Below are positions 1 to 16,553 of a stretch of DNA of 42,348 bases, piece by piece. A program made the translations under genes and the position numbers. Source of the DNA: a virus. The stretch's first letter is position 1. Each line of letters opens with the position of its first letter. The stretch covers positions 1 to 42,348 of the IMG/VR virus record IMGVR_UViG_3300032893_000120, one strand, 5' to 3'. The notes under the pieces are model-generated. The model had not been told where the DNA came from, did no database searches, and was given only the letters and a program-made list of their open reading frames with translations.

Positions 1-66
1 TCAAACCGCATGGGCGTCCTCCATCGACAGATAGGCGTGGGCGAAGGCGGACGCGGTCGCTTCCTC
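1..66. repeat. Contig-end direct repeat (pairs with 42283-42348)
   Basis: Bases 1-66 equal 42283-42348 except for one base (G at 16, T at the right end). The right end also matches 813-878 exactly. Joining the ends here keeps the leftward gene order intact: repeat protein, then the 61-residue gene. This supports a circular map or terminal redundancy. Confidence 0.8.
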
Positions 67-714
67 GTAGGCCCGCCGGGCGCGCGCGCACGCTTCCTCG
101 TAGGCCCGCTCGGCGGGCGCGCGCGCTTCCTCGTAGGCCCGCCGGGCGCGCGCGCACGCTTCCTCGTAGGCCCGCCTGGCGGGCGCGGTCGCTTCCTCGT
201 AGGCCCGCCGGGCGGACGCGCACGCTTCCTCGTAGGCCCGCCTGGCGCGCGCGCACGCTTCCTCGTAGGCCCGCCCGGCGGGCGCGGTCGCTTCCTCGTA
301 GGCCCGCTCGGCGGGCGCGGTCGCTTCCTCGTAGGCCCGCCCGGCGGGCGCGCACGCTTCCTCGTAGGCCCGCCTGGCGCGCGCGCACGCTTCCTCGTAG
401 GCCCGCCAGGTGGTCGCGCACGCTTCCTCGTAGGCCCGCCAGGTGGTCGCGCACGCTTCCTCGTAGGCCCGCTCGGCGGGCGCGGTCGCTTCCTCGTAGG
501 CCCGCCAGGTGGTCGCGCACGCTTCCTCGTAGGCCCGCCCGGCGGGCGGCGACAGGAAATTATGCGCCGCCCATGTCCAATCGAACACGGAAGCGACAGA
601 AAGGCACAGGTCGACGCTGATCTCGACTTGGCTACCGAATCGGCGCTTGAACTCGTTGCGCTGGTCGGCGCACGCGCCCTTGGCCTTCAACTGGGCGAGG
701 GTAAGAATCTTCAT
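1..714 (-). CDS. Hendecad-repeat protein, long copy (237 aa)
   Basis: Function unknown. A 59-residue non-repeated N-terminal domain begins MKILTLAQLKAKGAC. Then come fifteen tandem 11-residue repeats of the form RAYEEAxAxxx (residues 60-224) and a 13-residue tail ending HAV. An 11-residue period with regular small residues suggests a long right-handed coiled coil; this is inference. The start is the ATG at 714, preceded by AGGAG with suitable spacing; the frame is open further upstream, but that part is the remnant of a duplicated neighbour. The stop is the first three bases of the window. Across the circular joint the stop overlaps the start of the 61-residue gene at 42293. A shorter paralogue lies at 813-1262. 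Ala/Glu-rich repeat proteins of this kind are common but uncharacterised in phages. Confidence 0.85.
   Translation of the reverse strand: MKILTLAQLKAKGACADQRNEFKRRFGSQVEISVDLCLSVASVFDWTWAAHNFLSPPAGRAYEEACATTWRAYEEATAPAERAYEEACATTWRAYEEACATTWRAYEEACARARRAYEEACAPAGRAYEEATAPAERAYEEATAPAGRAYEEACARARRAYEEACASARRAYEEATAPARRAYEEACARARRAYEEARAPAERAYEEACARARRAYEEATASAFAHAYLSMEDAHAV
43..537 (-). repeat. 33-bp coding minisatellite, 15 units
   Basis: Fifteen consecutive 33-bp units encode the 11-residue repeats of the long repeat protein. Every unit contains the invariant top-strand core CTTCCTCGTAGGCCCGC, and only four or so codons vary. Units have no spacers, so this is not CRISPR. The period is a multiple of three, so gain or loss of units by slippage would keep the frame. 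Confidence 0.95.
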
Positions 715-727
715 GGTTGCGGATCTC

Positions 728-823
728 CTATGGCCGGCGTGGTAGCCGTGCATGCGCGCCCAGGCGTTCGAGCGCGGCGTTGAGCAAGCGCCAATAGCGC
801 AACAGCGGGGTTTCAAACCGCAT
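728..823 (-). pseudogene. Truncated duplicate of the 61-aa early gene
   Basis: The first 24 codons are identical to the gene at 42108-42293 (MRFETPLLRYWRLLNAALER and on). The frame then switches into duplicated leader sequence and stops after 31 codons. Its ATG overlaps the stop of the short repeat-protein gene, as at the intact copy. The junction falls in the shared string ATGCGCGCC, which looks like the microhomology breakpoint of a tandem duplication. It is probably a by-product of that event and not functional. Confidence 0.75.
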
Positions 824-1262
824 GGGCTTCCTCCATCGACAGATAGGCGTGGGCGAAGGCGGACGCGGTCGCTTCCTCGTAGGCCCGCCGGGCGCGCGCG
901 CACGCTTCCTCGTAGGCCCGCCGGGCGCGCGCGCACGCTTCCTCGTAGGCCCGCCAGGTGGTCGCGCACGCTTCCTCGTAGGCCCGCCAGGTGGCCGCGC
1001 ACGCTTCCTCGTAGGCCCGCCGGGCGCGCGCGCACGCTTCCTTGTAGGCCCGCCTGGCGGGCGCGGTCGCTTCCTCGTAGGCCCGCCCGGCGGGCGGCGA
1101 CAGGAAATTATGCGCCGCCCATGTCCAATCGAACACGGAAGCGACAGAAAGGCACAGGTCGACGCTGATCTCGACTTGGCTACCGAATCGGCGCTTGAAC
1201 TCGTTGCGCTGGTCGGCGCACGCGCCCTTGGCCTTCAACTGGGCGAGGGTAAGAATCTTCAT
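813..1262 (-). CDS. Hendecad-repeat protein, short copy (149 aa)
   Basis: Function unknown. Residues 1-59 and the C-terminal tail are essentially identical to the long copy at 1-714, but only seven 11-residue repeats (residues 60-136) are present. One unit has a K in place of E (RAYKEA). The start is the ATG at 1262, with the same AGGAGATCC ribosome-binding leader as the long copy. It lies directly downstream of the DUF932 gene in the leftward early operon. Two adjacent copies with different repeat numbers indicate a recent tandem duplication followed by expansion or contraction. Confidence 0.85.
   Translation of the reverse strand: MKILTLAQLKAKGACADQRNEFKRRFGSQVEISVDLCLSVASVFDWTWAAHNFLSPPAGRAYEEATAPARRAYKEACARARRAYEEACAATWRAYEEACATTWRAYEEACARARRAYEEACARARRAYEEATASAFAHAYLSMEEAHAV
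855..1085 (-). repeat. 33-bp coding minisatellite, 7 units
   Basis: Seven 33-bp units of the same family as 43-537 encode residues 60-136 of the short copy. Units are adjacent without spacers and differ mainly in codons 7-11 of each repeat. Confidence 0.95.
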
Positions 1263-1298
1263 GGTTGCGGATCTCCTATGGCCGGCGTGGTAGCCGTG

Positions 1299-1322
1299 CA
1301 TGCGCGCCAGGCGACGCGCATG
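1299..1322 (-). promoter_or_regulatory. Repeated leader hairpin upstream of the short repeat gene
   Basis: CATGCGCG and CGCGCATG form an 8-bp inverted repeat around an 8-base loop. The hairpin sits between the DUF932 stop codon and the next gene's ribosome-binding site. About 50 bases including it recur almost exactly at 42058-42111, between two unrelated early genes. Both copies begin right at a TGA stop. It may be an intercistronic mRNA element; the role is inferred. Confidence 0.5.
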
Positions 1323-1330
1323 GGCTGCGA

Positions 1331-2434
1331 TCACGCGGCGAGATCGAGCACTTTACCAGCCTCGCGCTCGAGCGCCACGCGCTCGTCTTGGAAGCTAATG
1401 GTCTTGGCATGAGCGGTCATCGCCGTGGCGACGTCCCACAGCGACTCGATCGGACGACCTTCCTCGCGCTCATGCGCCGCCTCGATCTTGGCCTGGAAGT
1501 TTTGGGGGAACTTGCGCGCCTTGAGGAATGCGCCCAGATCCTCGACTTTCTTCGCCTGCGCCGCCTGTAGCGCGGTCTCGATCGGCGCGGCGCTGGCGTT
1601 GTGGTAGGCCAACAAGGCCGGCGACACCTCTTCCAGCCAGCGGTCGGGCGCGGTCGCCGTATGCCGCAGGCGAATCTCGCGATAGCCTTCAGCGCCCCAG
1701 ACGATGCGATTGCAGCAGACATAATCGAACAGGAACATGGCGACGCCGATGGAAGCGGCGGCAACTTCGCTATTCCACAGAAAGAACCCCTTGGCCAGCG
1801 AGCCGGATTTGCCGTCGCGCCGGTTCGGCAGGTTGATGCGGTTCACTTCATCGGCCAGAAAGACGAACATGTCGCGGTCGGACGCGTACAGCGTCGTATT
1901 GGCCTTGGTGACCGCGACCGCCTTGCCGAACTCGCCAGGCACGCGCCAATCGCCGGTCACGCCGTCGCCGAACCGGTCGACCAGCTGGCGCGTAATGTCC
2001 TTGTTCCAGATCCGGCCGTAGTTCGGGCCGGTGACGGCGGCCAGCTCGCCAGCGCCTTCGCCAGCGCTGCGGCGCAACAGCACGCCGATATCCTCGGCGT
2101 CGCGGCCGAACTTCAGCCCGTAATTGACGCAGTCGGCGGCCATCGGCGACGGCAAGGTCCGCAGGTAGGACGCAGGCGCGCCAGCGCGCTGGCACAGCTG
2201 GCCGAACGCCCAATTGGTCGGTTGATAGGCGTGACCGTTCGGCCCGGTGATCGCCATACTTTCCATGTCGTTCGGATGCAGCGGCGTCGCCTCGATGCAG
2301 CGCGAGCTGACCACGACGCCGCGACTCGCCTCGCGCTGGCTCAGCGCATGCGAGTGCAAAGCATGAAGGGAAACAAAGCGTTCGTCGTCGGGACGGGAAG
2401 CCCATTGACGGGAAGCTTGCATCAGGTTGGTCAT
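1331..2434 (-). CDS. DUF932 family phage/plasmid protein (367 aa)
   Basis: Resembles the DUF932 (phage/plasmid-like, TIGR03299-type) proteins found on many phages and plasmids near DNA-metabolism genes; no biochemical role is established. Family-like features are the central stretch ending KANTTLYASDRDMFVFLADE, the WNSEVAAASIGVAMFLFDYV segment around residue 220, and a charged helical C-terminus. The ATG at 2434 has GAGGATCCGCAC directly upstream, a leader shared with two other early genes. A candidate promoter with overlapping TTGCTA-type sites lies at 2469-2513, so this is probably the first strongly expressed early gene and a target of the phage regulator. Confidence 0.85.
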   Translation of the reverse strand: MTNLMQASRQWASRPDDERFVSLHALHSHALSQREASRGVVVSSRCIEATPLHPNDMESMAITGPNGHAYQPTNWAFGQLCQRAGAPASYLRTLPSPMAADCVNYGLKFGRDAEDIGVLLRRSAGEGAGELAAVTGPNYGRIWNKDITRQLVDRFGDGVTGDWRVPGEFGKAVAVTKANTTLYASDRDMFVFLADEVNRINLPNRRDGKSGSLAKGFFLWNSEVAAASIGVAMFLFDYVCCNRIVWGAEGYREIRLRHTATAPDRWLEEVSPALLAYHNASAAPIETALQAAQAKKVEDLGAFLKARKFPQNFQAKIEAAHEREEGRPIESLWDVATAMTAHAKTISFQDERVALEREAGKVLDLAA

Positions 2435-2468
2435 GTGCGGATCCTCAGGGCAGAATCGCCCAAAGGGT

Positions 2469-2497
2469 CTTTAACAAATCTTGCTAACAACTGTCAA
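2469..2497 (-). promoter_or_regulatory. Candidate leftward early promoter
   Basis: On the minus strand there is a perfect TTGACA -35 box (2492-2497), a 17-base spacer and a weak -10 box TTAAAG (2469-2474). It sits about 35 bases upstream of the DUF932 start. TTGCTA/TAGCAA sites flank and touch the -35 box, so a bound repressor would block polymerase. The -10 is poor, which lowers confidence. Confidence 0.55.
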
Positions 2498-2513
2498 TAG
2501 CAATTTTTGCTAT
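2481..2513. promoter_or_regulatory. Operator-like TTGCTA cluster at the early promoter
   Basis: TTGCTA is at 2481-2486, and a perfect dyad ATAGCAA-TTT-TTGCTAT is at 2497-2513. The dyad abuts the -35 box of the candidate early promoter. The same half-site recurs in the 3.5-3.75 kb cluster and at the start codon of the XRE regulator gene (41245). Operator function is inferred from repetition and position. Confidence 0.6.
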
Positions 2514-2926
2514 TCTGCTATCGGCGTCGTGGCCAGGAGCAACGATATGGCGTCGTCGCGAGCTTGCCGGGCCTTGTCGACGGCGCGCTCGGCCTCGGCA
2601 CGGAGGCCGGCCAGACGGTTCGTGGTCGCTGCATCGAGGTCGGCCAGCGACCCGCTGTAGGCCATACGCTCGCGGCGATAGCCGGCCAGCGCCAGGCGGC
2701 GGATCTGGCGAAACAGCGCGTCGGCCTTGGCCATGGCCTGGTCACGGCGATGGGCGGCCAGCTCCTCAGGCCCCAGACGCGACGCCCACGTGTCGAGCTG
2801 GCGACGGGTTTGGCCGCGCCTGGCCAACAGGCGACGGGCTTTCATTCGCGCTCGCGCGGCGTAGGCCAAGCGATCGAAGCGTGTGATTTGGTAGGTCTTA
2901 TAGACAGTGCAACGGATTGGGCGCAT
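2510..2926 (-). CDS. Basic hypothetical protein (138 aa)
   Basis: Not recognised. The protein is very rich in Arg and Ala, for example MKARRLLARRGQTRRQLDTW near the N-terminal third. It is largely predicted-helical with no cysteine cluster or membrane segment. It could bind nucleic acid, but no motif supports a specific call. The start is uncertain: ATG at 2926 gives 138 residues and ATG at 2995 gives 161; neither has a clear Shine-Dalgarno. The stop lies inside the operator/promoter region of the DUF932 gene. It is the leftward gene nearest the control region. Confidence 0.55.
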   Translation of the reverse strand: MRPIRCTVYKTYQITRFDRLAYAARARMKARRLLARRGQTRRQLDTWASRLGPEELAAHRRDQAMAKADALFRQIRRLALAGYRRERMAYSGSLADLDAATTNRLAGLRAEAERAVDKARQARDDAISLLLATTPIAE

Positions 2927-3066
2927 GATGCAACTTATATGTGTGTGTTTCAGGAGCTTGCCAAGCCAAAAAAGCGTGGGAAACGCATTTTGCATTCAGG
3001 CTGGCGAGGGCGGTTTAATTAGTAAATCGATAAGTCATTGAAAACGCTTGCAAACTAGTAATCATT

Positions 3067-3078
3067 TCGCAGCTGCGA
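3067..3078. promoter_or_regulatory. 12-bp palindrome TCGCAGCTGCGA
   Basis: A perfect palindrome in the AT-rich control region, upstream of the leftward gene 2510-2926. A symmetric site like this could bind a dimeric regulator. There is no direct evidence of function. Confidence 0.35.
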
Positions 3079-3191
3079 GATTATTGTTATTTTGAAAGTT
3101 GTTTCATAGTTGGATCAACGATTTAGGTCGAGTGTGCGGTGCAATAATTACTAAAATGGAAAAAGGTAGGGGCACACACGTACGGTCGGAG

Positions 3192-3236
3192 AAAATCCCA
3201 CAGCGAGGGGCGCGCAGGTTGTATTTGTGGGATTTT
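3192..3236. promoter_or_regulatory. 11-bp inverted repeat with 23-base loop
   Basis: AAAATCCCACA (3192-3202) is perfectly complementary to TGTGGGATTTT (3226-3236). The A/T-rich outer ends would give a bidirectional terminator-like stem, or the two arms could be operator half-sites. It is the longest exact dyad noticed in the control region. Confidence 0.5.
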
Positions 3237-3504
3237 ATCGCAATGTACTCCGGGGGCCGTGTTCTCCGGAATAAAAGATAATCAAGGTACAGTCCGGTAT
3301 ATATATATATTATCTTTCAAAGAGATAAACTAATAAACAACTTTTAGCAATGCACCCCTCTTTTCTCCATCCCACTGGTCCTACAGGCGAAAAGGTAATT
3401 GCCGATGCTAAATAACATAACAACATCGTGAGCAAAATCCATATAAAAGACACAATCGGAACGCCAGTTTGCCATAGTTTTCATAATCGTGCCCCAATTC
3501 TAGC

Positions 3505-3516
3505 ACGTGTACACGT
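3505..3516. promoter_or_regulatory. 12-bp palindrome ACGTGTACACGT
   Basis: A perfect palindrome flanked on both sides by TAGC and located just before the TTGCTA cluster. A regulator dimer site is plausible. Only symmetry and location support this. Confidence 0.4.
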
Positions 3517-3541
3517 TAGCATATTCAACTGCTGGTTGAAA

Positions 3542-3743
3542 TAGCAAGGTTTGCTTGCTAATTTTCTTGCTAAAACAGGCTTAGCAAAAATGATTATGTA
3601 AAGTTTTGTTGCTGAAATGTGTTCAGATTATGACTTTCGTTGCTAAAAGCTTTGCTAAGTCGGGCATAGCAATAAGTGTTAGGTACGCTGTGGGGCTGCT
3701 AGGCGGGGCTAGGCGTGCCGGCAATAGCAGACATTGCTAGCAA
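3542..3743. repeat. TTGCTA/TAGCAA iteron cluster
   Basis: Nine exact copies of TTGCTA or its complement start at 3542, 3555, 3567, 3582, 3640, 3652, 3667, 3734 and 3738, with near-copies between. Pairs form dyads: TTGCTAA-7-TTAGCAA (3567-3587) and the 10-bp palindrome TTGCTAGCAA (3734-3743). A tenth exact copy lies at 3345. The array could be a multi-site operator for the XRE protein at 41018-41245, whose own start codon overlaps the motif, or origin iterons. Confidence 0.7.
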
Positions 3744-3891
3744 ACTCGGGGTCGGGGGGCCTCCCACCAGCCGGTCGCGGAAATTCCAGGGCGCACTTTC
3801 AAACCGCACGCAAAATTTCGTGTTTTATGTTGCGTCGCACAAAATTTTACAGCACCTAATACCACGCATAAACTGTACAATCTGCCCCTGG

Positions 3892-3920
3892 TTGACACCC
3901 TCCGCAACCTGTTCCACATT
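3892..3920 (+). promoter_or_regulatory. Candidate rightward late promoter (weak)
   Basis: There is a perfect TTGACA -35 box at 3892-3897, but the hexamer 17 bases on (CACATT) matches the -10 consensus at only three positions. Transcription would start at or next to the ATG at 3926, giving a leaderless message, which fits the absence of a Shine-Dalgarno there. An alternative -10, TACAAT, lies at 3876. A weak -10 may mean that an activator is needed. Confidence 0.35.
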
Positions 3921-3925
3921 GGCGC

Positions 3926-4288
3926 ATGGTTAAGATTATTCTCACCACCCGACGCGAGCCGCCGCGCCGTCCCGAGCCTGACGACGCCATCCGTTATTCC
4001 GTCAATTCGCAGTGGATCTGGAAAGGCGACGCGCAGATCCGCGCCCGGCCGCAAGCCCGCCTGTTGTTCCTAGTCCTGGTCGGTCGCGCTGGCGAATGGG
4101 TGAGCCGCGGCGAGCTGATCCATATCTTTTGGGGCTGGCGTCTCGACGGCGGTCCCGAGGATGTGGTCGCCTGCCTGCAACAGGTTGTGCTCGAAGCCCG
4201 CGCCGTGGCCGCCCTGTTCGGGTTCGCCATCGAGGCCGGTCATGGCCGCGGCTACACCGCGAGGCGAGCGCTTGTCGACGCCGCTTGA
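3926..4288 (+). CDS. OmpR-like winged-helix protein at head of late block (120 aa)
   Basis: Residues about 40-115 fit the OmpR/PhoB-type DNA-binding domain (Trans_reg_C). The recognisable pattern is LVGRAGEWVSRGELIHIFWG, a recognition-helix segment, then a hairpin reading GHGRGYTARR, the counterpart of the family's RGxGY motif. There is no receiver domain. The N-terminal 40 residues are basic. The gene overlaps TerL by 47 bases, so the two are coupled. Two roles are possible: a late-gene activator, or the small terminase subunit, which is usually an HTH protein encoded just before TerL. No ribosome-binding site is visible, so translation may be leaderless. Confidence 0.75.
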   Translation: MVKIILTTRREPPRRPEPDDAIRYSVNSQWIWKGDAQIRARPQARLLFLVLVGRAGEWVSRGELIHIFWGWRLDGGPEDVVACLQQVVLEARAVAALFGFAIEAGHGRGYTARRALVDAA

Positions 4289-6287
4289 TCCGCGCGAGGA
4301 CGCGATCCGCCAGCTGCTGCTGGACCCGGTGCTCGCCCATGACGTGTTCTTCGAGGACCGCCATGAGCACAAGTCGCCCAAGTTCCATCAGGAAATGCTG
4401 CGTGACTGGCACTCGGAAACGGCGCGCATCCTGACCATCGCCTTCCGTGGCTCCGCCAAGTCGACCAGAGCCGAGGAAGCGATCTGCATCGAGGCCGCCG
4501 CTTTGCGGACAATGAACTGCGTCGTCATCGGCGAAAGCGAGACCCGCGCCGCCGAGCGCCTGGCCACCGTCAAGCATGTGTTCGAGACCAACGACGCGCT
4601 GCAAAACCTGTTCGACGTTGGGCCGGGCGACACCTGGACCGACACCCGCTGCACGCTGTCGAACGGCGTCATGCTGCAAGCCTATGGCCGCGAGCAGAGC
4701 CTGCGCGGCGTCAAGCACCTGGACCGTCGGCCCGACCTGATCTTCATCGATGACCTGGAGGATGAGGAAAGTGTCAAGACGCCGCAGCAGCGCGCCAAGA
4801 CGCGGTCGTGGCTGACCCGCACCGTCTTGCCGGCGCTGGAGCCCGGCGGGCGGATCCGCATGGCCGCTACGCCGCTTCACCCCGAAGCCCTGGCGATGAC
4901 CTTGAAGCGCGCCAAGGGATCGTGGCTGACGCGCGTCTACCCGGCGATGTACAAGGGCGCGGACGGCGAGTGGATCGCCACCTGGCCGGACCGCTTCCCG
5001 GTCGACCAGCTCCTGGCCAAGTGGGCGGAAATGACCGAGATCGGCGAGAGCGAGGCGTTCGTGCAGGAATACCTCTGCGAGGCGGTCGACCCGAGCGTCA
5101 TGGTCTTTTCCGAGGACATGATGCGTGTCGTGCCGCGCCAGCGGTCGTGGCACCCGGTCTACGCCGTCTACGATCCGGCCCGCACCAAGAGCGAGCACAG
5201 CGCCACGACCGGTAAGGTGGTCGCCTCGTGGATCGGCGCGCGGTTGGTGGTCTGGGACGCTTCGGCCAAAAAGATGCTGCCGGACGAGATCGTCGCCGAT
5301 ATCTTTGAGGTCGACCGGACCTACAACCCGGTGGCGATCGGGTTCGAGGAAGACGGGTTGAATGAATGGGCGCTGCAACCCATACGAGCGCGTCAGGTCG
5401 AGACCGGTCAGATCGTACCATTGAGACCGCTCAAAGCGCCGAGGGGCAAGCTCGACTTCATCCGCGGGCTGCAACCCTACTTCAAGGCCGGCGAGGTCGA
5501 GTTCGCGCAGGATCTGCCCGAGCTGCGCAACCAGCTGCTCGGCTTCCCGACCGGCTATATCGACGCGCCGAACGCGCTGGCCTACATGCTCAGGCTCAAG
5601 CTTGGCGTGCCGGTCTACGACAATTTCCGCGACGAGCTGATCGTCGAGACGGTCGCCGTCAATCCGCGCGCGCCGCTGTGGCTCTGCCTCGGGTCGAACG
5701 GGGCGGCGGTGACGGCGCAGCTCGCCCAGATGGCGCAGGGGCAATTGAGCGTCATCGCGGACTGGCTGGCCGAGGGCGATCCAGGGTCCGTATTGCGCGA
5801 CGTCGTCGAGGAAGCTAGGCTGACGGCGCTGAGCAGTAAGGGCGGGACGCGCGCAGGGGCGGGGGCCGGGTTAAGCGGATCGCCTGGCCTCCGTCTTGTC
5901 GTCCCCCGCGCCACCTACGACTCCTACCAGTCAATCGGGCTCGGCTTGGCGGCTCGGAAGCTCCAGCGCGACGTCACCCGCGGCGGCGACCCGATGGCCG
6001 GGCGCGAAGAGATCCGGGCGCTGATGCGGCGCTCCGCCCATGGCGCGCCGGCTCTGCGGATCAGCAAGGACGCCCGCTGGACGCTCAGGGCGCTGGCCGG
6101 CGGCTTCGCTCGCGACGCCGACAAGGCCGATCCGCAGAACAACGCCTACTCGGTGCTGATGGAGGGTCTGGAGAGCTTCGCGGCGCTGCTGCGCGGCGGG
6201 GCGGGCGACAGTGACACCGAGACGCAATATGCTTATACTGCTGACGGCCGCCGATATATTTCGGCTCTGGCGACGCGCAGGGGTTGA
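4242..6287 (+). CDS. terL: Terminase large subunit, TerL (681 aa)
   Basis: The packaging motor: it cuts concatemeric DNA and pumps it through the portal using ATP. The ATPase domain has Walker A IAFRGSAKST (residues 66-75), Walker B LIFIDDLED (166-173) and the coupling motif AATPLHP (208-214). The nuclease domain has D311 in VYDPA, acidic E369/E370/D371 in IGFEEDG, and D441 in DAPNALAYML. Residues 450-681 are an extension beyond the usual nuclease end, with no recognisable motif. The chosen start, ATG 4242, follows a GAGG and overlaps the upstream gene by 47 bases; a longer frame from 4161 has no support. Confidence 0.95.
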   Translation: MAAATPRGERLSTPLDPREDAIRQLLLDPVLAHDVFFEDRHEHKSPKFHQEMLRDWHSETARILTIAFRGSAKSTRAEEAICIEAAALRTMNCVVIGESETRAAERLATVKHVFETNDALQNLFDVGPGDTWTDTRCTLSNGVMLQAYGREQSLRGVKHLDRRPDLIFIDDLEDEESVKTPQQRAKTRSWLTRTVLPALEPGGRIRMAATPLHPEALAMTLKRAKGSWLTRVYPAMYKGADGEWIATWPDRFPVDQLLAKWAEMTEIGESEAFVQEYLCEAVDPSVMVFSEDMMRVVPRQRSWHPVYAVYDPARTKSEHSATTGKVVASWIGARLVVWDASAKKMLPDEIVADIFEVDRTYNPVAIGFEEDGLNEWALQPIRARQVETGQIVPLRPLKAPRGKLDFIRGLQPYFKAGEVEFAQDLPELRNQLLGFPTGYIDAPNALAYMLRLKLGVPVYDNFRDELIVETVAVNPRAPLWLCLGSNGAAVTAQLAQMAQGQLSVIADWLAEGDPGSVLRDVVEEARLTALSSKGGTRAGAGAGLSGSPGLRLVVPRATYDSYQSIGLGLAARKLQRDVTRGGDPMAGREEIRALMRRSAHGAPALRISKDARWTLRALAGGFARDADKADPQNNAYSVLMEGLESFAALLRGGAGDSDTETQYAYTADGRRYISALATRRG

Positions 6288-6292
6288 CCGTC

Positions 6293-6487
6293 ATGTCGGA
6301 CATGCTTTGGGCGAAGATCGAGGAAATGGGGCAGCGCCTCCAGAAGATCGAGGACGCGCTGGAGATCCTGGGCGCATGGGCGCAGGCGGAAGCCGCCAAG
6401 GCCGAGCGCGAGGCTGAGCACCAGGCGGCGCTCGCCAAGCAGGCGGCCGAGCCCGCCAGCGAGCCCAACAAGCCAAGCGAGACCTGA
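6293..6487 (+). CDS. Small coiled-coil protein (64 aa)
   Basis: Not assigned to a family. It begins MSDMLWAKIEEMGQRLQKIE, a heptad-like amphipathic helix, followed by an Ala/Glu/Lys-rich helix and a Pro/Ser-rich end. The ATG at 6293 has AGGGG upstream; a TTG at 6284 overlapping the TerL stop is a less likely start. It sits between TerL and two exported proteins. A coiled-coil oligomer linked to packaging or the head is possible, but nothing specific can be claimed. Confidence 0.7.
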   Translation: MSDMLWAKIEEMGQRLQKIEDALEILGAWAQAEAAKAEREAEHQAALAKQAAEPASEPNKPSET

Positions 6488-6490
6488 ACC

Positions 6491-7246
6491 ATGAAGCGCA
6501 TCCTGGCGGGCCTGCTGCTGCTGCTGGCGCTGGCCGCCAGTGGAGCGCAGGCGCAAAACAAGACGACGCCCGACAACATCTCTGGCGGCGTCTACAACCA
6601 GATTTTGCCCACGCTGTCGAACCTGCAACCAGGGGTGTTGCAGGTGGATCAGAACGGTCGGTTGATTATCGACCTCGGCGCGGGTTCGATCAGCAACACA
6701 ACGTTCGGGGCGTCTCAGAACGGCAACTGGAACGTCGGCGGCTACGACTCCGGCACGTCTCCTGTTCAATCTGCAACACCCGCCAATGCCTCGCACACCG
6801 CGGGGCAATCAGTTGGCGGTCTGTTCTCGATCCCGCTCGCCCGAACGAATGGCGGTTCTGGCCTTCTCACTCAGATCAACATCACCTCAGTCGCAGGCGA
6901 CACGCCGACGCTTCAGGTTCGTCTGTGGGATCGCGCGCCGACCAATTCGAACTTCGCCTGCGCTGACAACTCGGCTTACGCGGCGGGCTCGGGCTCGACT
7001 GGCGGCACGGTCGGCGCGGATCAAGCGCATCTGCTGACGCCGCCGTTCTCGGTGACGCTCGCCGCGCCGACCTCAGTGACGGGTGACGCCTACACCTACG
7101 GCTCATACTCGTTCTCCCCGCCGCTGTCGTTCAAGAACCAAGACGGCACGACAACGAAGAATGTCTACGCCTGCTTGCAGGCCACGACGACCTACACCCC
7201 CGGCGTCGGCGCCTATTACGTCGATGCCATCGGCCCGCAGGACTAA
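6491..7246 (+). CDS. Exported hypothetical protein with signal peptide (251 aa)
   Basis: No family recognised. The N-terminus MKRILAGLLLLLALAASGA followed by QAQ is a textbook Sec signal peptide with cleavage expected near residue 22. The mature part is rich in Gly, Ser, Thr and Asn, typical of beta-structured surface or fibre proteins. It contains the segments PTLQVRLWDRAPTNS and VYACLQATTTY and two to three cysteines compatible with disulfides. It lies directly before the GH54-like gene. A virion appendage or secreted accessory protein is possible. A true signal peptide on a protein in a phage late operon is unusual. Confidence 0.8.
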   Translation: MKRILAGLLLLLALAASGAQAQNKTTPDNISGGVYNQILPTLSNLQPGVLQVDQNGRLIIDLGAGSISNTTFGASQNGNWNVGGYDSGTSPVQSATPANASHTAGQSVGGLFSIPLARTNGGSGLLTQINITSVAGDTPTLQVRLWDRAPTNSNFACADNSAYAAGSGSTGGTVGADQAHLLTPPFSVTLAAPTSVTGDAYTYGSYSFSPPLSFKNQDGTTTKNVYACLQATTTYTPGVGAYYVDAIGPQD

Positions 7247-7250
7247 CCCC

Positions 7251-8936
7251 ATGCGCTCTACCCTCTCCCTCTCCCTTGCTCTTTGTCTCGCCCTGTGGGG
7301 CGGGGTGGGAGAGGCGGCTCAAGTGTCGAATGGACGAGCGGCGGCGCTATTCTCTGGAGGCGCACCAATTCTTCTCCCGTGTGATGCTGCGGCTAAGGCT
7401 GGGACGCCGTGTGTCGCCGCTCACGGAATCGCGAGGAGGTTATTTCATAGTTACATTGGCGCTCTTTTTCAGATAACGCGCGCGTCTGATAGCGCTACGC
7501 TGAATATATTTCCGAATTCAGACAACTCCGCAAATATTGCCCCAACGGCAGCCTTCTGCGCGGCAACAAAATGCAATATCACGACGATATATGATGAGGC
7601 AAACTCGGGGACGCCAAATAACAATCTAACCAGCGCCGTCAACAATAATCAGTTGATGCTGACGATCACTTACGGCGGCCACGTAGTGCCGGTTTTTGAT
7701 AAAGTGTATGGGGTGTTTCGCAACAGAGCCAGCACGACCAACATCCCGACAGGAAATTCCTCAATCACTGAATACGCGGTGGTTGATAACGGGGCAAACT
7801 CTGCTTGTTGCGGTTTTTACGGAAACGTCGAGACGACCGTGGCTGATACGGGTAACGGGCACATGTTTGAATTGGCCTATGTATCGACCGGAACTTCTGT
7901 CGGGATCGGTCCTGGCCCTTGGGTTGGAGTTGATTGGGAGAACGGAACTTACCTATACGGCCCGACGCAGACTGCTTACGAATTCTCAATTGTGGCAAAA
8001 TACGATAGCGCAGCCACGACTTGGACCTTGGAAAGTGGGGACGCAAAATCGTCCGCACTGGCTATTCTCAATTCTTCCGCGCCGCCGGCAGAAGAGTCCG
8101 CCGCGTTCGAAGGCGGCTTGTCGTTGGGGGAGGGCGGCGACGGGTCGCCGTCGCCGACTCATTTTCTCGAAGGTGCGGTTATTGCCGCACCGACAAGCTA
8201 TTCAACCGATGTTGCGATACAGAGAAGCATAAGCGCTTTTTATGGCGGTTCGCCGACAGCCGTTCCCGTTCCAAGCGTGACGGTTCCGAGCGGTCTGATC
8301 GGGCGTTGGGCCGTCGACGGCTACGGCGTCAGTGGGGCAGGAATCGTATATGATCAATCTGGCTCTGGTTTCCATGCGCCGATGCTGGGATTGTCTCCAT
8401 CGGCAATCGTAACCGGCAAAGTCCTTACTGGATTGGCGATCGACAAGAATGGGTTTGCCAATGCCGGTTCGATGAATCGTCTATCATTAATGGCGTCATT
8501 CAGCGTCACGGGTTGGTACCGATACGACAGCACCCCCACAGTTGGTTACGAGGCGATTGTATCGAAGGACACGGTGACCAGCTATGGCTGGTTCATCGGT
8601 GATAACAATAAAACTAGACAATTAGCTCTTATGTCGCCAGGATCAATCTTAGAGGTTTGCTCAACCGCAGATGCTGTTGGAGCATGGCATTTTGCCAGCT
8701 TAACGGTTGATGGAAGCAATAACTGGACCTTGTATCGAGATGGAGTGTCTTGTGGGGTTGTCCAGCCAGCAAGCTTGATCGGAAACCCATTGGCAAATCT
8801 TATGCTTGGCGCAGATACAAGTAATTTCGCGGCAACGTTTCCTGGCACCATCAATGACATAAGAATATACAACCGTTCTCTATCATCTACGGAAGTGAAT
8901 GCGATCTATACGGCGGGGCAAGGGGGCAATCCTTAG
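7251..8936 (+). CDS. GH54 arabinofuranosidase-like enzyme with LamG-type domain (561 aa)
   Basis: Predicted to cleave alpha-L-arabinofuranosyl or related sugar bonds, perhaps as a capsule or exopolysaccharide depolymerase. After a signal peptide (1-23), residues about 40-335 align by eye with fungal AbfB catalytic domains. The cysteine pairs C44-C54, C103-C108 and the adjacent pair C186-C187 are all present. So are the nucleophile context CCGFYGNVE (E194) and the acid/base context EGGDGS (D297). Residues about 345-560 resemble a LamG/concanavalin A-like lectin domain (GLIGRWAVDGYG near its start, NDIRIYNRSLSSTEVNAIY at its end). Codon use is visibly more AT-rich than in neighbouring genes, suggesting acquisition. 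The start at 7251 follows the preceding stop by four bases. Confidence 0.8.
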   Translation: MRSTLSLSLALCLALWGGVGEAAQVSNGRAAALFSGGAPILLPCDAAAKAGTPCVAAHGIARRLFHSYIGALFQITRASDSATLNIFPNSDNSANIAPTAAFCAATKCNITTIYDEANSGTPNNNLTSAVNNNQLMLTITYGGHVVPVFDKVYGVFRNRASTTNIPTGNSSITEYAVVDNGANSACCGFYGNVETTVADTGNGHMFELAYVSTGTSVGIGPGPWVGVDWENGTYLYGPTQTAYEFSIVAKYDSAATTWTLESGDAKSSALAILNSSAPPAEESAAFEGGLSLGEGGDGSPSPTHFLEGAVIAAPTSYSTDVAIQRSISAFYGGSPTAVPVPSVTVPSGLIGRWAVDGYGVSGAGIVYDQSGSGFHAPMLGLSPSAIVTGKVLTGLAIDKNGFANAGSMNRLSLMASFSVTGWYRYDSTPTVGYEAIVSKDTVTSYGWFIGDNNKTRQLALMSPGSILEVCSTADAVGAWHFASLTVDGSNNWTLYRDGVSCGVVQPASLIGNPLANLMLGADTSNFAATFPGTINDIRIYNRSLSSTEVNAIYTAGQGGNP

Positions 8937-8997
8937 CCGAATGCGACCATTTTCATCTTCCCGCGCCCCGCTGATCTCCTGACCCCGAAAGTCCGCC

Positions 8998-9372
8998 ATG
9001 ACCGACGCGCTTCCGGCGCGGGGCGCGTTGGTAAAGGAGCGGCATGTGATTTTGACCGATGATCACGGCGGCCTTCTCTCCGCCTATGCCGCCAAGTTCA
9101 CGGCGTGCCTCTTGGCGAAATGCCATGTCGTCGTCGCTGGCCTGTGCGCCTCGGCTTGCACGCTGGCGCTGGGTTTGCCGCCTGATCGGGTCTGCGCAAC
9201 GGACGAAGCTGAGCTTCAGTTCCATGCCGCGTCTGATGGGCCGTCCGGCTCTTACACCGCGTTGCTGTTCGCGGCTTACCCGCCGGCGCTGCGAGCGCGG
9301 CTCGGCCGGTTGACGGACGCGATCGTCACCATCCGCGCCCCGGAGCTCTGGCGCTACGTGAGGCAGTGCTGA
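8998..9372 (+). CDS. Mini ClpP/crotonase-like serine protease homologue (124 aa)
   Basis: The core HVVVAGLCASACTLALGLP, then R64 and FHAA (H76), matches the small ClpP-like fold proteins in which the Ser of CASAC (S52) and a following His form the active site. Substrate and localisation are unknown; head maturation protease is one possibility given its place just before the portal gene, but phages with this capsid type often lack one. Two cysteines flank the serine. A weak ribosome-binding site precedes ATG 8998. The first 10 codons and upstream bases are partly duplicated at 9797-9856. Confidence 0.6.
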   Translation: MTDALPARGALVKERHVILTDDHGGLLSAYAAKFTACLLAKCHVVVAGLCASACTLALGLPPDRVCATDEAELQFHAASDGPSGSYTALLFAAYPPALRARLGRLTDAIVTIRAPELWRYVRQC

Positions 9373-9373
9373 C

Positions 9374-9700
9374 ATGGCTGATTACGTCATCCAAGCCCCG
9401 GACGCCGCGACCTTGCAAGCCTTGGCGCAGAGCATGGGCTTCTGGAACGCAGCGAACGGCGCGTTCGTCACGCAGGGACCGCTGCCCGGCGACCCGAACC
9501 CGCAGGCGAGCTACTTCCTCAACGTCGTCGGCGCGGTTCCCGGCCAGAGCGGCTATTGGGCGCGGCTCCGGATCAACGGGCTCAACCCCTTCGCTTCTGG
9601 TGCGCTCGCCGTGCCGCCCGGCCTGACGATCTATCCGCCGACCGGCGACCCGTCGCAGCCGGCCGACTACGTCCAACCGGCGATCGGCGAGATCGCATGA
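9374..9700 (+). CDS. Hypothetical virion-region protein (108 aa)
   Basis: Not recognised. The short protein begins MADYVIQAPDAATLQALAQS, has a middle with aromatic and Gly residues (SYFLNVVGAVPGQSGYWARL), and ends in a Pro-rich beta-type tail. It has no membrane segment and no cysteine. The start lies one base after the preceding stop, and the stop overlaps the next small ORF by ATGA, so it is embedded in a coupled run of small genes before the portal gene. Confidence 0.75.
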   Translation: MADYVIQAPDAATLQALAQSMGFWNAANGAFVTQGPLPGDPNPQASYFLNVVGAVPGQSGYWARLRINGLNPFASGALAVPPGLTIYPPTGDPSQPADYVQPAIGEIA

Positions 9701-9777
9701 TCTGGCTCGTGACCCTCTGGCTCGCTTGCCTCTGGGTGTTTCTCGATGCAATCGAGCGCGCCCCGCTGATCGACTGA
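9697..9777 (+). CDS. Very small single-span membrane peptide (26 aa)
   Basis: The ORF MIWLVTLWLACLWVFLDAIE and six more residues overlaps the upstream stop by ATGA, suggesting translational coupling. Residues 2-17 form one strongly hydrophobic Trp-rich segment. Length and composition fit a tiny membrane peptide, but no family can be named and chance cannot be excluded at this length. Confidence 0.45.
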   Translation: MIWLVTLWLACLWVFLDAIERAPLID

Positions 9778-9796
9778 ATCTGCCGAAAGAATTGTC

Positions 9797-9856
9797 ATGC
9801 CCGACGCGCTTCCGGCGCGGGGCGCGGGTCGACGAGGGCTGAAAATACAGCTATAA
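9797..9856 (+). pseudogene. Duplicated 5' end of the mini-protease gene
   Basis: A 19-codon frame starts MPDALPARGA, matching MTDALPARGA at 8998. The shared DNA spans about 30 bases (9796-9825 versus 8997-9026) with one mismatch inside the block. Beyond it the sequence diverges and stops. It looks like a duplication remnant overlapping the portal promoter region, or a recombination seam. Confidence 0.5.
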
Positions 9857-9857
9857 C
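9829..9857 (+). promoter_or_regulatory. Candidate promoter for the portal gene
   Basis: A TCGACG -35 box (9829-9834), 17-base spacer and TATAAC -10 box (9852-9857) each match five of six consensus bases. The ATG at 9865 lies seven bases beyond, and no ribosome-binding site is present, so the message may be leaderless. Confidence 0.45.
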
Positions 9858-9864
9858 GTGCAGC

Positions 9865-12012
9865 ATGGCCAAGCCGAAAAAGATCCGCAACGACGCTGCC
9901 GATCAGGCGCGAGAGACGCCAGAAGCGGTCGCCGACGTCGAGGAAGAGCTGGGGCGCGACGCGCAGCTCTGCCACGATAAGGCGGTGCGCGAGGCGCTGC
10001 TCGACATTTACAAGGACATCGAGAAGGGTTGGGAACAGCAGGCGGAGCGTGCCGACAACAATCTCGACTATTGGGAAGCCTACAACTGCACGTTGGGGCA
10101 GCGGCAATTCTACCAGGGCAATTCCCAGATCTTTGTGCCGATCATCAATCAGGCGGTCAACGCCCGCAAGACGCGATTCGTCAACCAGCTCTTTCCGCAG
10201 AACGGCCGCTATGTTGAAGTGTCGACCGAGGACGGCGGGCTGCCCTATGACGAAATGTCGCTGGTCGAGCACTACATCCGCCAGAACCGCATGCGGACCC
10301 GGATCGCGCCCGCGCTGGTGAAAAACGGCGACATCGAGGGCCAGTACACGATCCAGGTGACCTGGGAGACGACGCGGCGCGATGTCATGCACCGAGTGCA
10401 GAAGGCGGCCGAGATCGACCAGGGGTTGCAGGCGGAAGGCGTCGACGAGATCGAGGACATCGCCGAGGAAGAGATCGAGAGCGGTCGGCCAGTCGTCCGG
10501 ATCATTCCCGATTCCGACATCCTGGTGCTGCCGCAGACGGCCGATTCGCTCGACGAGGCGTTGCGCGACGGCGGCTCGGTGACGACGATGTGTCGCTGGT
10601 CGCAGGCCAAGATCAGTCGCATGATCGCCGAGGGCGAGATCGACGAGGAAGCCGGCGAAGAGCTGCTGGAGGAATTGAAGGGCGACGGGCGCAGCGAGAA
10701 GGTCGACAAGCCGAAGGAAATGGTCGACGCCGCCGGGATCAAGGGCGACGGCCGTGGCAAATGGGCGCTCGTCTACCGAACCTGGACGATGCTGACTGTC
10801 GATAAGGAGCGTCGGCTCTACCTCGTCTATTTCGGCGGCAAGGACCGCATCCTGTCGTGCAAGCGCAACCCCTACTGGTCCGACCGGATCGACGTGTTCT
10901 CGGCGGCGGCCGACAAGGTCGACGGCGCGTTTAAGGGGATCTCGCGCCTGCAACCGGTTGTGGCGCTACAATATCAAGCCAATGACGCCTGCAACGAGGG
11001 CATGGACGCGGCGGCCTATGCGTTGTTGCCGATCATCATGACCGACCCGGAGAAAAACCCCAAAGTCGGTTCGATGGTGATGACGCTGGCGGCGGTGTGG
11101 GAGACCAGTCCGAACGACACGCAGTTCGCCAAGTTCCCGCCGCTGTGGAAAGATGCGCTGGAGATCATTGCTTCGACCAAGACCGAGATTTTCCAGGCGC
11201 TGAGCGTTAACCCGGCGCAAATTACGCAGGCCAACAACCCGCGCGGCAAGAAGCCCAATCAGGCTGAGATCGCCAACGAGCAGCAGATCGACATCCTGAC
11301 CACTGCTGACGCGGTGTCGACGCTGGAGGATGAGATCCTGACGCCGATGCTGGCGTTCATGCTAGAGCTTGACCACCAGTACCGCGACAAGGACTTGCGG
11401 GTGCGCCAGTACGGCGAGATCGGCATGCGGCAGGAAATGAAGTCGATCCCGCCGATTCGCATGAACAAGGTCTATCAGTTCCGTTGGTACGGCGTCGAGC
11501 AGGCGCGCAACGCCCAGCGCATGCAGCAGCAGATCGCCGGGCTGAACGTCATCCGCGGCATCCCGCCACAGCTCTATCCCGGCTACAAGCTCGACCTCGG
11601 GCCGGCGCTGGCGCAGCTGTTCGAGGATCTGTTCGGGCCGCGTATCGCGCCGCTGGTGTTCAAGGACCAGCGGCAGGAGTACGCTGTCGACCCGCAAATG
11701 GAGAACGAATGGCTGGAGCAGGGTATGTCCACGCCCGTCCACGCGCTCGACAACCACCAGCAACACATGCAAGTTCACGTCCAGGCGCTGAAGGCGACCG
11801 GTGATCCGGGTGGCGCGATCCGCGCTCACATGCTGGCGCATATGCAGGCGCTTGAGCAGCAGCAACGGCCGGCGCAGCTCGGGCCGCCGCCTGGCGGTGC
11901 GGGACCGCGGGTCGGCGCAACACCGGGCGCGCCGCGCGGCGGGCAACAGCCGCCGGGCGCGATCCACGCTGATCAGATTAAAGACGCGCGTGCCGCGCCG
12001 AGGCCGCAGTAA
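9865..12012 (+). CDS. Portal protein (715 aa)
   Basis: Forms the dodecameric ring at the capsid vertex through which DNA is packaged and ejected. Assignment rests on size, position after TerL and before the lysis and head genes, and podovirus portal-like features: an N-terminal helical wing with WEAYNCTLGQRQFYQGNSQI, the stretch IFVPIINQAVNARKTRFVNQ around residue 90, an acidic central region (IEDIAEEEIESG), and a Pro/Gln/Gly-rich C-terminal tail after residue 660. The N-terminus is charged and probably disordered. No ribosome-binding site is visible before ATG 9865, but the coding frame is unambiguous. Confidence 0.85.
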   Translation: MAKPKKIRNDAADQARETPEAVADVEEELGRDAQLCHDKAVREALLDIYKDIEKGWEQQAERADNNLDYWEAYNCTLGQRQFYQGNSQIFVPIINQAVNARKTRFVNQLFPQNGRYVEVSTEDGGLPYDEMSLVEHYIRQNRMRTRIAPALVKNGDIEGQYTIQVTWETTRRDVMHRVQKAAEIDQGLQAEGVDEIEDIAEEEIESGRPVVRIIPDSDILVLPQTADSLDEALRDGGSVTTMCRWSQAKISRMIAEGEIDEEAGEELLEELKGDGRSEKVDKPKEMVDAAGIKGDGRGKWALVYRTWTMLTVDKERRLYLVYFGGKDRILSCKRNPYWSDRIDVFSAAADKVDGAFKGISRLQPVVALQYQANDACNEGMDAAAYALLPIIMTDPEKNPKVGSMVMTLAAVWETSPNDTQFAKFPPLWKDALEIIASTKTEIFQALSVNPAQITQANNPRGKKPNQAEIANEQQIDILTTADAVSTLEDEILTPMLAFMLELDHQYRDKDLRVRQYGEIGMRQEMKSIPPIRMNKVYQFRWYGVEQARNAQRMQQQIAGLNVIRGIPPQLYPGYKLDLGPALAQLFEDLFGPRIAPLVFKDQRQEYAVDPQMENEWLEQGMSTPVHALDNHQQHMQVHVQALKATGDPGGAIRAHMLAHMQALEQQQRPAQLGPPPGGAGPRVGATPGAPRGGQQPPGAIHADQIKDARAAPRPQ

Positions 12013-12036
12013 GCACACCCGTAAGGAGTTCTGATC

Positions 12037-12663
12037 ATGCCTGGACTGTCGCCCAACCTGCTCGACGTCATGTGGCCCATGGCGGCGCATAGCCTTGTCG
12101 ACGGCGTCGCTGCGTCGTCGGAAGTGACCTTCGCCAAGTACGGGTTGATCACGGCGCAGGAGGTTGCCGACTTCATGGCGCAGTGCAGCGAGGAAACCGG
12201 CGGCGGCACGGCGATCGAGGAAAACTTGAACTATTCCGCTGCTCGGTTGTGCCAGGTCTGGCCGACCCGGTTCTCGTCGCTCGCCGCGGCTGCGCCGTTC
12301 GCCCACAACCCTAGGATGCTGGCCGACAACGTCTACGGCGGGCGCTACGGCAACCGGCCGGGGACCGACGACGGCTGGAACTTCCGCGGTCGCGGGTTGA
12401 TCCAGATCACATTCCGGTCGTGGTACGAGAAGATCGGCGTCGAGGTCAGCCTCGATCTGGCGGGCAATCCAGGTCTCGTCAACGATCCGGGCAACATCTT
12501 GGCGGTGGCGGCGGCTTTTTGGCGTCTTGACGGCGTCAATGCGTTCGCCGACAAAGGCGACTTCAGGGGCGAGACGCTACGTGTAAACGGCGGCTTGACC
12601 AACTACCAGTTGCGCCTGCAATGGCGGGCGCGGTGGCGGCAGGCGCTCGGCCTGCCGAAGTAG
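12037..12663 (+). CDS. Endolysin, GH19 (chitinase-like) lysozyme (208 aa)
   Basis: Hydrolyses peptidoglycan glycan strands at lysis. The GH19 fold is shown by QCSEETGGG, placing the catalytic acid at E53, by the second glutamate in IEENLNYSA (E62), by NVYGGRYGN, and by the signature GWNFRGRGLIQITFRSWYEK. There is no signal peptide or membrane anchor, so it should depend on a holin for release; a multi-span membrane protein follows immediately. ATG 12037 is preceded by AAGGAG with good spacing. Length is normal for phage GH19 endolysins. Confidence 0.93.
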   Translation: MPGLSPNLLDVMWPMAAHSLVDGVAASSEVTFAKYGLITAQEVADFMAQCSEETGGGTAIEENLNYSAARLCQVWPTRFSSLAAAAPFAHNPRMLADNVYGGRYGNRPGTDDGWNFRGRGLIQITFRSWYEKIGVEVSLDLAGNPGLVNDPGNILAVAAAFWRLDGVNAFADKGDFRGETLRVNGGLTNYQLRLQWRARWRQALGLPK

Positions 12664-12674
12664 TGGAGGTCTGC

Positions 12675-13364
12675 ATGGACTGGTCAAAGGTCAACACGAC
12701 GAACATCAAGGCTGCGGCGAACGTCGCGATCGCCATCGCAGCACTGTTCCTGTCGGGCGCGATCAGCTTTCCGCCCGGAACGTCCGAGGCGACGCAGCAC
12801 ACAATCCTCGCCTGGGATTCCTGGATTCTGGCGGTTGTCGCGGCGCTGAACGGCATTCTGCACTTCGTGCCGGACTTCACGGTCCCGACCGCGAGAATCG
12901 CGCCGCCGATCGTCAAGACGCTCATCGTCGGGTTCCTGCTAACCGGCGCGCTGACGCTTGGTGCGCCGCAGGCTCGTGCCGCCTCGGTGCCGGTGACGAC
13001 TTCGCCGACGCTGCCGAATCCATTCGCGACGCTGTTCAACTCGGTCAAGACTTTTACTGTGGCGGATCTTCAGGCGGCGCTTGACGACGCCAATGCGCAA
13101 AGTCCGCCTGACACGCGTCACGCCGCCTGCTGGCAGGCGCTAATCCCGATCGCGCAGGCGAACCTTACCAATCCGCTTCCGGCTGGTGTCGGCGCGGCGC
13201 AGGCGATCCAGAAGGTATTCGATGATTCGAAGATTTTTGGATCGCAGCCGTGGAAAGACGCCGTGGCGCAAGCGTGCGCGCTGACCGAGCTTGATCTTCA
13301 GACGACCTTGAACGTGCTGCTGCTGAAGGTCGGGGTATCGGCGGTGACGTTACCGAAGCTGTGA
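12675..13364 (+). CDS. Membrane protein with three hydrophobic segments, candidate holin (229 aa)
   Basis: Three hydrophobic segments are visible near residues 12-32, 44-66 and 80-102; the last ends in an AQARAA-like cleavage-type motif. A soluble C-terminal half of about 120 residues with two or three cysteines follows. Location directly after the endolysin, a strong GGAGG ribosome-binding site (start ATG 12675) and multiple membrane spans favour a holin or other lysis membrane protein. The large C-terminal domain is unusual for a holin, and no holin family is recognised, so the role is inferred from context. Confidence 0.65.
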   Translation: MDWSKVNTTNIKAAANVAIAIAALFLSGAISFPPGTSEATQHTILAWDSWILAVVAALNGILHFVPDFTVPTARIAPPIVKTLIVGFLLTGALTLGAPQARAASVPVTTSPTLPNPFATLFNSVKTFTVADLQAALDDANAQSPPDTRHAACWQALIPIAQANLTNPLPAGVGAAQAIQKVFDDSKIFGSQPWKDAVAQACALTELDLQTTLNVLLLKVGVSAVTLPKL

Positions 13365-13368
13365 GGAC

Positions 13369-13857
13369 ATGATGAGCGTCACGCTTCGCTTTGTCTCATC
13401 CGGGGACATGATTTCGCGCATCATCCGGGGAGCTGAACTTGGGTTCCCCTATCAGCACGTCGAGGCCAAGATGCCCGACGGGACGTTGCTCGGGGCGCAC
13501 CTTGACGGCGGCGTGCAGGCTCGCGCTGCCGACTACGACAAAAGCTATGCCTACGACCTCTACGTCGAGGTTCCGTGCAGCGCCGATCAGGCCGCGGCGT
13601 TCGAAGCGTTCCTGCGGTCGCAGGTCGGGAAGCCTTACGACCTGGAAGCTATTGCCGAGATGGCCGATGGCTTCGTCACCGGCGAAGTGCCTAACTGGCC
13701 GAGCAAACCGTCATGGATTTGCTCGGCGCTCCAGACTGCTGCGCTGTTGACGGCGGGGATCATCAAGGGCGCGCCGGCGACGGTGCGCTTGGCGACGCCG
13801 CGCGATGTGCTGGTCGCTTGTGCAGTGCTGACGCCGATCGGGAAGTTTTCGACGTGA
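13369..13857 (+). CDS. Permuted papain-fold (NlpC/P60-like) hydrolase (162 aa)
   Basis: A conserved His comes early (H30 in PYQHVEAKMPDG) and a Cys late (C118 in SWICSALQTA). This is the order of circularly permuted NlpC/P60 (YiiX-like) cysteine hydrolases, which act on peptide, amide or ester bonds in cell walls or lipids. The intervening VGKPYDLEAIAEM also fits that fold. It sits in the lysis cassette between the putative holin and a spanin-like protein, so peptidoglycan or envelope attack is plausible. Two adjacent ATGs (13369, 13372) could start it; spacing to AGG favours the second. Confidence 0.7.
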   Translation: MMSVTLRFVSSGDMISRIIRGAELGFPYQHVEAKMPDGTLLGAHLDGGVQARAADYDKSYAYDLYVEVPCSADQAAAFEAFLRSQVGKPYDLEAIAEMADGFVTGEVPNWPSKPSWICSALQTAALLTAGIIKGAPATVRLATPRDVLVACAVLTPIGKFST

Positions 13858-14195
13858 CTGCGCCGGTCGACAACCATTCTGACGGCGTTCTGTCGTTCGC
13901 GACCTATTGGGGCGTTGTCGAGTGGTTGTTGACCGGGCTGATTTCCGCCGTGATCGGCATATCGACGTTCGCCTGGCGACAGGCGACCGAAGTGAGGACG
14001 CTCAAGGTGCGTATGGACACAGTCGAGAGCTGGCAGACCGACCACAACGAAGAGACACATGAGCGGGTGCGGGAGATCAACGGCAAGATCGAGGCGATCC
14101 GCGAGGGGCTTCCCGACAAGCAATTCATTATCGAGCGGATCAACCAGCTGTCCGACCGTATTGACCGCTTGATCGACGCCAAGTTGGCGCGCTGA
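13854..14195 (+). CDS. Membrane-anchored coiled-coil protein, spanin-like (113 aa)
   Basis: One transmembrane segment (about residues 18-42, VEWLLTGLISAVIGISTFAW) is followed by a charged helical tail with coiled-coil character (about 46-112). This is the architecture of an inner-membrane spanin that bridges to the outer membrane at lysis. No outer-membrane lipoprotein partner was found beside it. The GTG start at 13854 overlaps the previous stop as GTGA, with GGGAAG upstream. It could instead be a generic membrane-anchored coiled coil, so the spanin call is tentative. Confidence 0.65.
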   Translation: MTAPVDNHSDGVLSFATYWGVVEWLLTGLISAVIGISTFAWRQATEVRTLKVRMDTVESWQTDHNEETHERVREINGKIEAIREGLPDKQFIIERINQLSDRIDRLIDAKLAR

Positions 14196-14199
14196 AAAG

Positions 14200-14228
14200 T
14201 TGACGTTTTCGGCTTATGCACGTATAGA
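14200..14228 (+). promoter_or_regulatory. Promoter before the scaffold and capsid genes
   Basis: TTGACG (14200-14205), a 17-base spacer and TATAGA (14223-14228) form the best sigma70-like promoter I found on the late strand. It lies in the first sizeable late intergenic gap and would boost scaffold and capsid transcription. Confidence 0.65.
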
Positions 14229-14238
14229 TGGCGGGTAT

Positions 14239-14311: not shown

Positions 14312-14324
14312 AGGGGAGAAGCAA

Positions 14325-15101: not shown

Positions 15102-15142
15102 GGACTCGGCGGGCGGTCCGTCGAGCAATGGGGTGAGCGGAC

Positions 15143-16486: not shown

Positions 16487-16505
16487 CGCGGGAGCTTCTG
16501 ATCTG

Positions 16506-16532: not shown

Positions 16533-16553
16533 TGAACAACGAGGGTAAGGACG

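Follow-up and report, generated by a model that had tools for sequence, protein, structure and literature searches.

The intergenic region that divides the two transcription arms of an uncultured virus of bacteria contains a dense array of the hexamer TTGCTA/TAGCAA which, judging from site geometry and from related phages, is probably an operator cluster for the phage's own XRE-type repressor, placed at the early/late divide. The record analysed here in full (42,348 bases, hereafter the window) belongs to a phage group known in this analysis from metagenomes alone, and no close DNA relatives of positions 1-20000 were found in the phage collection.

Genome layout

The late arm runs rightward from 3926 to about 28,480 and carries the terminase, portal-like, endolysin and capsid genes, while the leftward early/replication arm carries a prim-pol/DUF927 helicase gene (28478-31483) together with genes for a helicase, an exonuclease, DNA polymerase A, the XRE protein and a DUF932 protein. 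In relative L004 the sequence corresponding to window 42,287-42,168 is joined to the array of 33-bp repeats seen at window 1-1100. In relative G020 the prim-pol, polymerase, XRE, control region and terminase follow one another without a break. The two ends of the window therefore lie adjacent in the genome, and the TTGCTA cluster marks the divide between the arms. The intergenic region (2996-3925) has 44% GC as against 64% for the genome. On its late side lie a small window-specific ORF with a weak winged-helix (Trans_reg_C) match (3926-4288, plus strand) and the large terminase subunit TerL (4161-6287, plus strand), the first conserved late gene; on its early side lies the DUF932 gene (phrog_1362; 1331-2434, minus strand). 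Tyrosine (PF00589) and serine (PF00239) recombinases were found neither in the window nor in five relatives, with positive controls, which bears out for both families an earlier remark, made from the letters of this DNA, that the phage has no integrase.

Several other features of the two arms were recorded. A minus-strand ORF at 13-1223 carries tandem repeats of 33 bp, registered as 17 copies in two blocks, which encode an 11-residue unit like RARPESLRRSV, and relatives G002 and G025 carry comparable alanine/arginine-rich repeat proteins in the same arm. The DNA polymerase A gene holds an insertion of about 810 bp (37253-38062, minus strand), missing from G020 and L004, whose internal ORF (37294-37935) resembles by eye an HNH/AP2-type homing endonuclease, so that the insertion may be an intron or an intein; nothing significant was matched in Pfam or Rfam. 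In the late arm, 26880-28208 (plus strand) encodes a protein similar to PurD (phosphoribosylamine-glycine ligase; E 2e-24, under the family cut-off) that is found in all five compared relatives.

TTGCTA sites are concentrated in the control region and at the DUF932 promoter

The hexamer occurs 17 times in the window against 7.0 expected, a number reached in none of 100 shuffles of the whole sequence (1000 dinucleotide-preserving shuffles were used for each region). The copies lie at 2481, 2498 and 2507 in the DUF932 promoter, ten times within 3345-3743, and singly at 28149, 30727, 31360 and 41245. The sequence-only reading had reported the ten exact sites at 3345-3743 and others at 2481-2513, 41245 and 31360, all of them correctly placed, and the genome-wide count against shuffled sequence that it proposed confirms the enrichment. 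The intergenic region holds 10 hexamers against 0.85 expected, and its core (3530-3750) holds nine, all within 3542-3743, against 0.6 expected; neither count was attained in 1000 shuffles, and in those of 3530-3750 no 6-mer of any kind reached nine. The remaining intergenic copy (3345-3350, minus strand) is isolated. At the DUF932 promoter, three hexamers fall within 32 bp (0.08 expected, 0 of 1000 shuffles). Both the cluster and the sites at DUF932 are thus genuine. The other 40.9 kb contain four copies against 5.7 expected, with no enrichment, so lone sites elsewhere, counted as hexamers, are background.

A 15-bp dyad coincides with predicted promoter elements

When half-sites were scanned in all orientations with spacers of 0-15 bp (64 combinations, at most one mismatch in twelve), TAGCAA-N3-TTGCTA was the single arrangement recurring more than twice, with copies starting at 2472, 2498, 3542, 3725 and 41236 in the 42 kb; 0.007 copies are expected within the region and 0.047 outside it, where at least one appears in 4.3% of shuffles. 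The earlier observation that several sites form dyads is thereby sharpened to a 15-bp unit, to which the site at 41245 also belongs.

The promoters named here are consensus matches and not mapped start sites. The predicted DUF932 promoter (2468-2497, minus strand; TTGACA-N18-TAAAGA, or N17-TTAAAG) has its TTGACA box at 2497-2492 and its -10 near 2468-2474, and lies between two dyads: O1 (TAGCAATTTTTGCTA, 2498-2512), a perfect copy, abuts the -35 box on its upstream side, and O2 (TAACAAATCTTGCTA, 2472-2486, one mismatch) lies in the spacer and -10. A putative rightward promoter (3536-3564, plus strand; TTGAAA-N17-TAATTT), whose -10 runs into the next TTGCTA, has its spacer filled by O3 (TAGCAAGGTTTGCTT, 3542-3556, one mismatch). 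O4 (TAGCAGACATTGCTA, 3725-3739) overlaps the palindrome TTGCTAGCAA (3734-3743), the two together spanning 3725-3743, and O5 (TAGCAGCCATTGCTA, 41236-41250, one mismatch) covers the start codon of the XRE gene (41245) and matches O4 at 14 of 15 bases. O5 is the sole copy outside the control region and the DUF932 promoter, with a p of about 0.04 for a feature spotted post hoc, and the start of the XRE gene in L004 has no dyad.

Between O3 and O4 lie two triplet modules, TTGCTA-N6-TTGCTA-N9-TAGCAA (3555-3587, plus strand) and a second with the same word order and spacing and with diverged spacers (3640-3672, plus strand). Their half-sites do not form dyads of the main type, a point against reading the whole array as XRE operators; the coincidence of the dyads with predicted promoter elements is a point for it. 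A putative late promoter ahead of the late arm (3892-3920, plus strand; TTGACA-N17-CACATT) contains no TTGCTA site, and a TTGACA-N17 promoter also precedes TerL in G002, G020 and L085.

The regulon proposed by the sequence-only reading therefore keeps the control region, the DUF932 promoter and the XRE start and loses the primase start (31360), which, like 28149 and 30727, is at background level and has no dyad. In IMG/VR the exact triplet module gave seven matches, which are attributed to chance because all lie in contigs of 33-38% GC without clusters. The dyad fused to TTGACA gave one match, which falls within a coding sequence on a contig of 35% GC and is likewise taken as chance.

A small helix-turn-helix protein with a predicted lambda-repressor fold

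The proposed repressor is a 75-aa XRE-type helix-turn-helix protein (41018-41245, minus strand), 31-39% identical to homologues in L085, G020 and L004. Taken alone it falls under the Pfam cut-offs (HTH_31, E 0.026), which weighs against the operator reading; the G020 homologue passes both HTH_31 and HTH_3, and among PDB entries a profile of five homologues matches the repressors CylR2 and P22 C2 with E 1e-4. The predicted model has four helices in a lambda-repressor-like fold (pLDDT 84), and its Foldseek matches include controller proteins, HipB, P22 c2, Aca2 and POU domains, many with probabilities of 0.9-1.0 and with weak E-values, as expected for so tiny a fold. Homology and model together indicate that the phage encodes a regulator predicted to be of the lambda-repressor type. 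The putative recognition helix reads GQTAVSAW in the window and L004 and SQRSISHW in G020 and L085, a difference that is consistent with a different site word. L004, which has the same recognition helix as the window, contains no TTGCTA in its 7.3 kb, a stretch that excludes the control region. Between its XRE and polymerase genes, L004 also carries an ORF (1174-2208) that looks ParB-like with a helix-turn-helix by eye; it has no PF02195 match, and it showed no counterpart in the window when the two sequences were compared.

Related phages carry a different site word

Terminase and capsid searches recovered dozens of relatives, from which 54 regions upstream of TerL were compared, and the genes of the window were tabulated against five near-complete relatives and L004. 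The TTGCTA cluster itself occurs in 0 of the 54 regions. The XRE gene is common to the window, G020 and L004 and is missing from G002, G022, G024 and G025; the control region of G020 is enriched in the word GCTA (24 copies against 8.7 expected, z 5.7), and no GCTA enrichment is seen in the control regions of the four genomes that lack an XRE homologue. G022, one of the four, encodes an XRE-like protein of another sort and has no apparent array. An XRE profile run over the 54 regions picks L085 (E 1e-24) and L094 (E 1e-7), and the highest GCTA counts in the scan of upstream regions are those of G020 (28), L085 (22) and L094 (19). The last supports the association only weakly, since L094 has none of the dyads GGCTA-N3-TAGCC, of which there are six copies in G020, five in L085 and, among 32 other relatives scanned, a single copy in one. 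In both G020 and L085 one such dyad coincides precisely with the -10 of a leftward TTGACA-N17 promoter belonging to the arm that contains XRE. These two control regions, each from a phage encoding one of the closest XRE homologues, are the two closest, and the comparison is to be read as a small sample whose two closest arrays come from mutually related phages. Between them only the dyads persist: 7 of 24 single GCTA sites are conserved against a background of 26%, no excess. The dyad halves point outward in the window and inward in G020, so that the shared GCTA core may be a coincidence.

The sequence-only reading had named the XRE protein as the natural candidate binder, and it stands as the best candidate, being an early gene shared with G020 and L004 in a group whose G020-like control regions are rich in GCTA-core dyads. 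The C-terminal DUF927 half of prim-pol also covaries, being best shared with G020 and L085 (52%); this tells against the reading with XRE as binder, and the DUF927 half may have an origin-binding role.

Repeats of other kinds were noted in the control regions of relatives. In that of G002, a perfect 50-bp palindrome (L026 3961-4010) is accompanied by eight copies of GGCCGGGGGGTA and by three direct repeats of 31 bp; the palindrome prompted the idea of a protelomerase, which was rejected because no ResT/TelK domain was found in the window or the five relatives. In control regions of the G020 type, L085 (5728-6760) and L084 (5896-7000) carry a second repeat, AACCTA/TAGGTT, with 10 and 5 copies respectively, perhaps distinct from the GGCTA dyads. 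The control region of L071 (relative G025) holds eleven CCTGCA words including ACCTGCAGGT palindromes, and in L069 (G022) and L070 (G024) the dyads TTAGGTCTAA and TGTTAGGACTAACA adjoin putative late promoters.

A model for the array and its alternatives

Two dyads bracket the -35 box in the promoter of DUF932 and another fills a promoter spacer, so that a dimer bound there would keep RNA polymerase out. We infer that an XRE dimer would occupy the dyads and block polymerase at the DUF932 and 3536 promoters, dampening early transcription from DUF932 onward as well as the rightward transcript. Through O5, the protein might limit its own expression, and the half-sites of the triplets could recruit further dimers, which might load cooperatively or form a loop spanning the control region. 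The outcome would be that early genes are shut off or that a block resembling immunity is set up.

The principal alternative, possible although unlikely, is an iteron-like origin in which the prim-pol/DUF927 helicase or some other initiator binds the repeats at 3542-3743, opens nearby AT-rich DNA and represses the DUF932 promoter through inverted copies. Plasmid initiators repress promoters through inverted copies of their origin repeats, and the array resembles the iteron origins of plasmids and phage-plasmids in having short repeats clustered within an AT-rich intergenic segment (44% GC) and inverted copies at a nearby promoter. The triplet duplicated with fixed spacing, the different repeats at the same place in relatives (for instance the 31-bp repeats of G002) and the sharing of the DUF927 half with G020 and L085 also fit such an origin. 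However, the sites are of mixed orientation with spacings of 12, 13, 15, 58 and 67 bp and are not helically phased (phasing vector 0.16), no DnaA box (TTATNCACA, at most one mismatch) lies within the cluster, no recognised initiator (rep) gene stands alongside it, and three of the dyads sit on promoter elements, while the DUF927 half also occurs (40%) in G031 and G033, where GCTA is not enriched. As far as sequence can tell, the mixed orientation and missing DnaA boxes count against a classical iteron origin. GC skew was set aside as evidence of an origin because oppositely transcribed arms confound it.

Somewhat more doubtful is a different binder for the same sites, whether the winged-helix ORF at 3926-4288 acting as a late activator, DUF932 regulating itself or a borrowed host regulator. 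The winged-helix ORF has normal coding composition and lies directly downstream of the control region, and DUF932 stands behind the operator-bearing promoter, but both are missing from G020, whose array is comparable, and neither explains the dyad at the XRE start. Autoregulation by DUF932 was rejected, as the regions upstream of its homologues elsewhere have no common dyad. A combined element, to which we give slightly less credence again, would have operators and origin repeats share sites in this phage group without integrase. One small XRE protein would then link the shut-off of early genes to the control of copy number in an extrachromosomal prophage, and relatives would differ by wholesale replacement of the site sequence.

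A role of the cluster as the partition site (centromere) by which an extrachromosomal prophage is maintained would suit the clustered repeats and the finding of no integrase or resolvase in six genomes, yet it is very improbable, given that no ParB_N domain was found in the window or the five relatives and that the promoter overlap points to transcription control. Chance clustering of TTGCTA, an AT-rich word, in AT-rich DNA has practically no standing and is refuted for the cluster, its count being reached in 0 of 1000 composition-preserving shuffles and an independent second cluster lying at the DUF932 promoter; it holds for the sites at 28149, 30727 and 31360.

Comparison with known repressor systems

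Read as XRE operators, the array is similar to the lambda CI and P22 C2 systems in combining a small helix-turn-helix protein of the lambda-repressor fold with dyad operators of 13-17 bp over -35 and -10 elements between two arms. In contrast with these, no divergent cI/cro pair surrounds the operators and no second repressor was found in the families searched, the XRE protein has 75 aa and no dimerisation or cleavage domain, there is no integrase, and the XRE gene belongs to the early operon of the leftward arm, about 4 kb from the array. Autoregulated phage repressors of the Aca type, such as Aca2 (PMC8434428), likewise pair a small helix-turn-helix regulator in an early operon with inverted-repeat operators at promoters, and Aca2 structures are among the sequence and fold matches of the XRE protein; the sequence similarity is weak, however, and the array here is larger than one or two repeats. 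The stoperators of cluster A mycobacteriophages are 20-30 sites dispersed genome-wide, mostly in one orientation, through which the repressor also blocks elongation (PMC6550527). They share with the system proposed here a single repressor, many short sites and a site that varies between related phages and tracks the repressor, whereas here the sites are limited to promoters and one intergenic region and occur in both orientations.

Implications

The type of control region described here is ordinary for phages, and the turnover of operators between relatives is clear and testable; the rapid change of word between related viruses is the informative part. For a phage group known from metagenomes, the analysis yields a testable operator map and a named candidate repressor. 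Since TTGCTA dyads give way to GGCTA dyads between phages with 60% identity in their terminases, the co-evolution of repressor and operator, and likewise immunity groups, could be tested directly with two small proteins and short DNA fragments.
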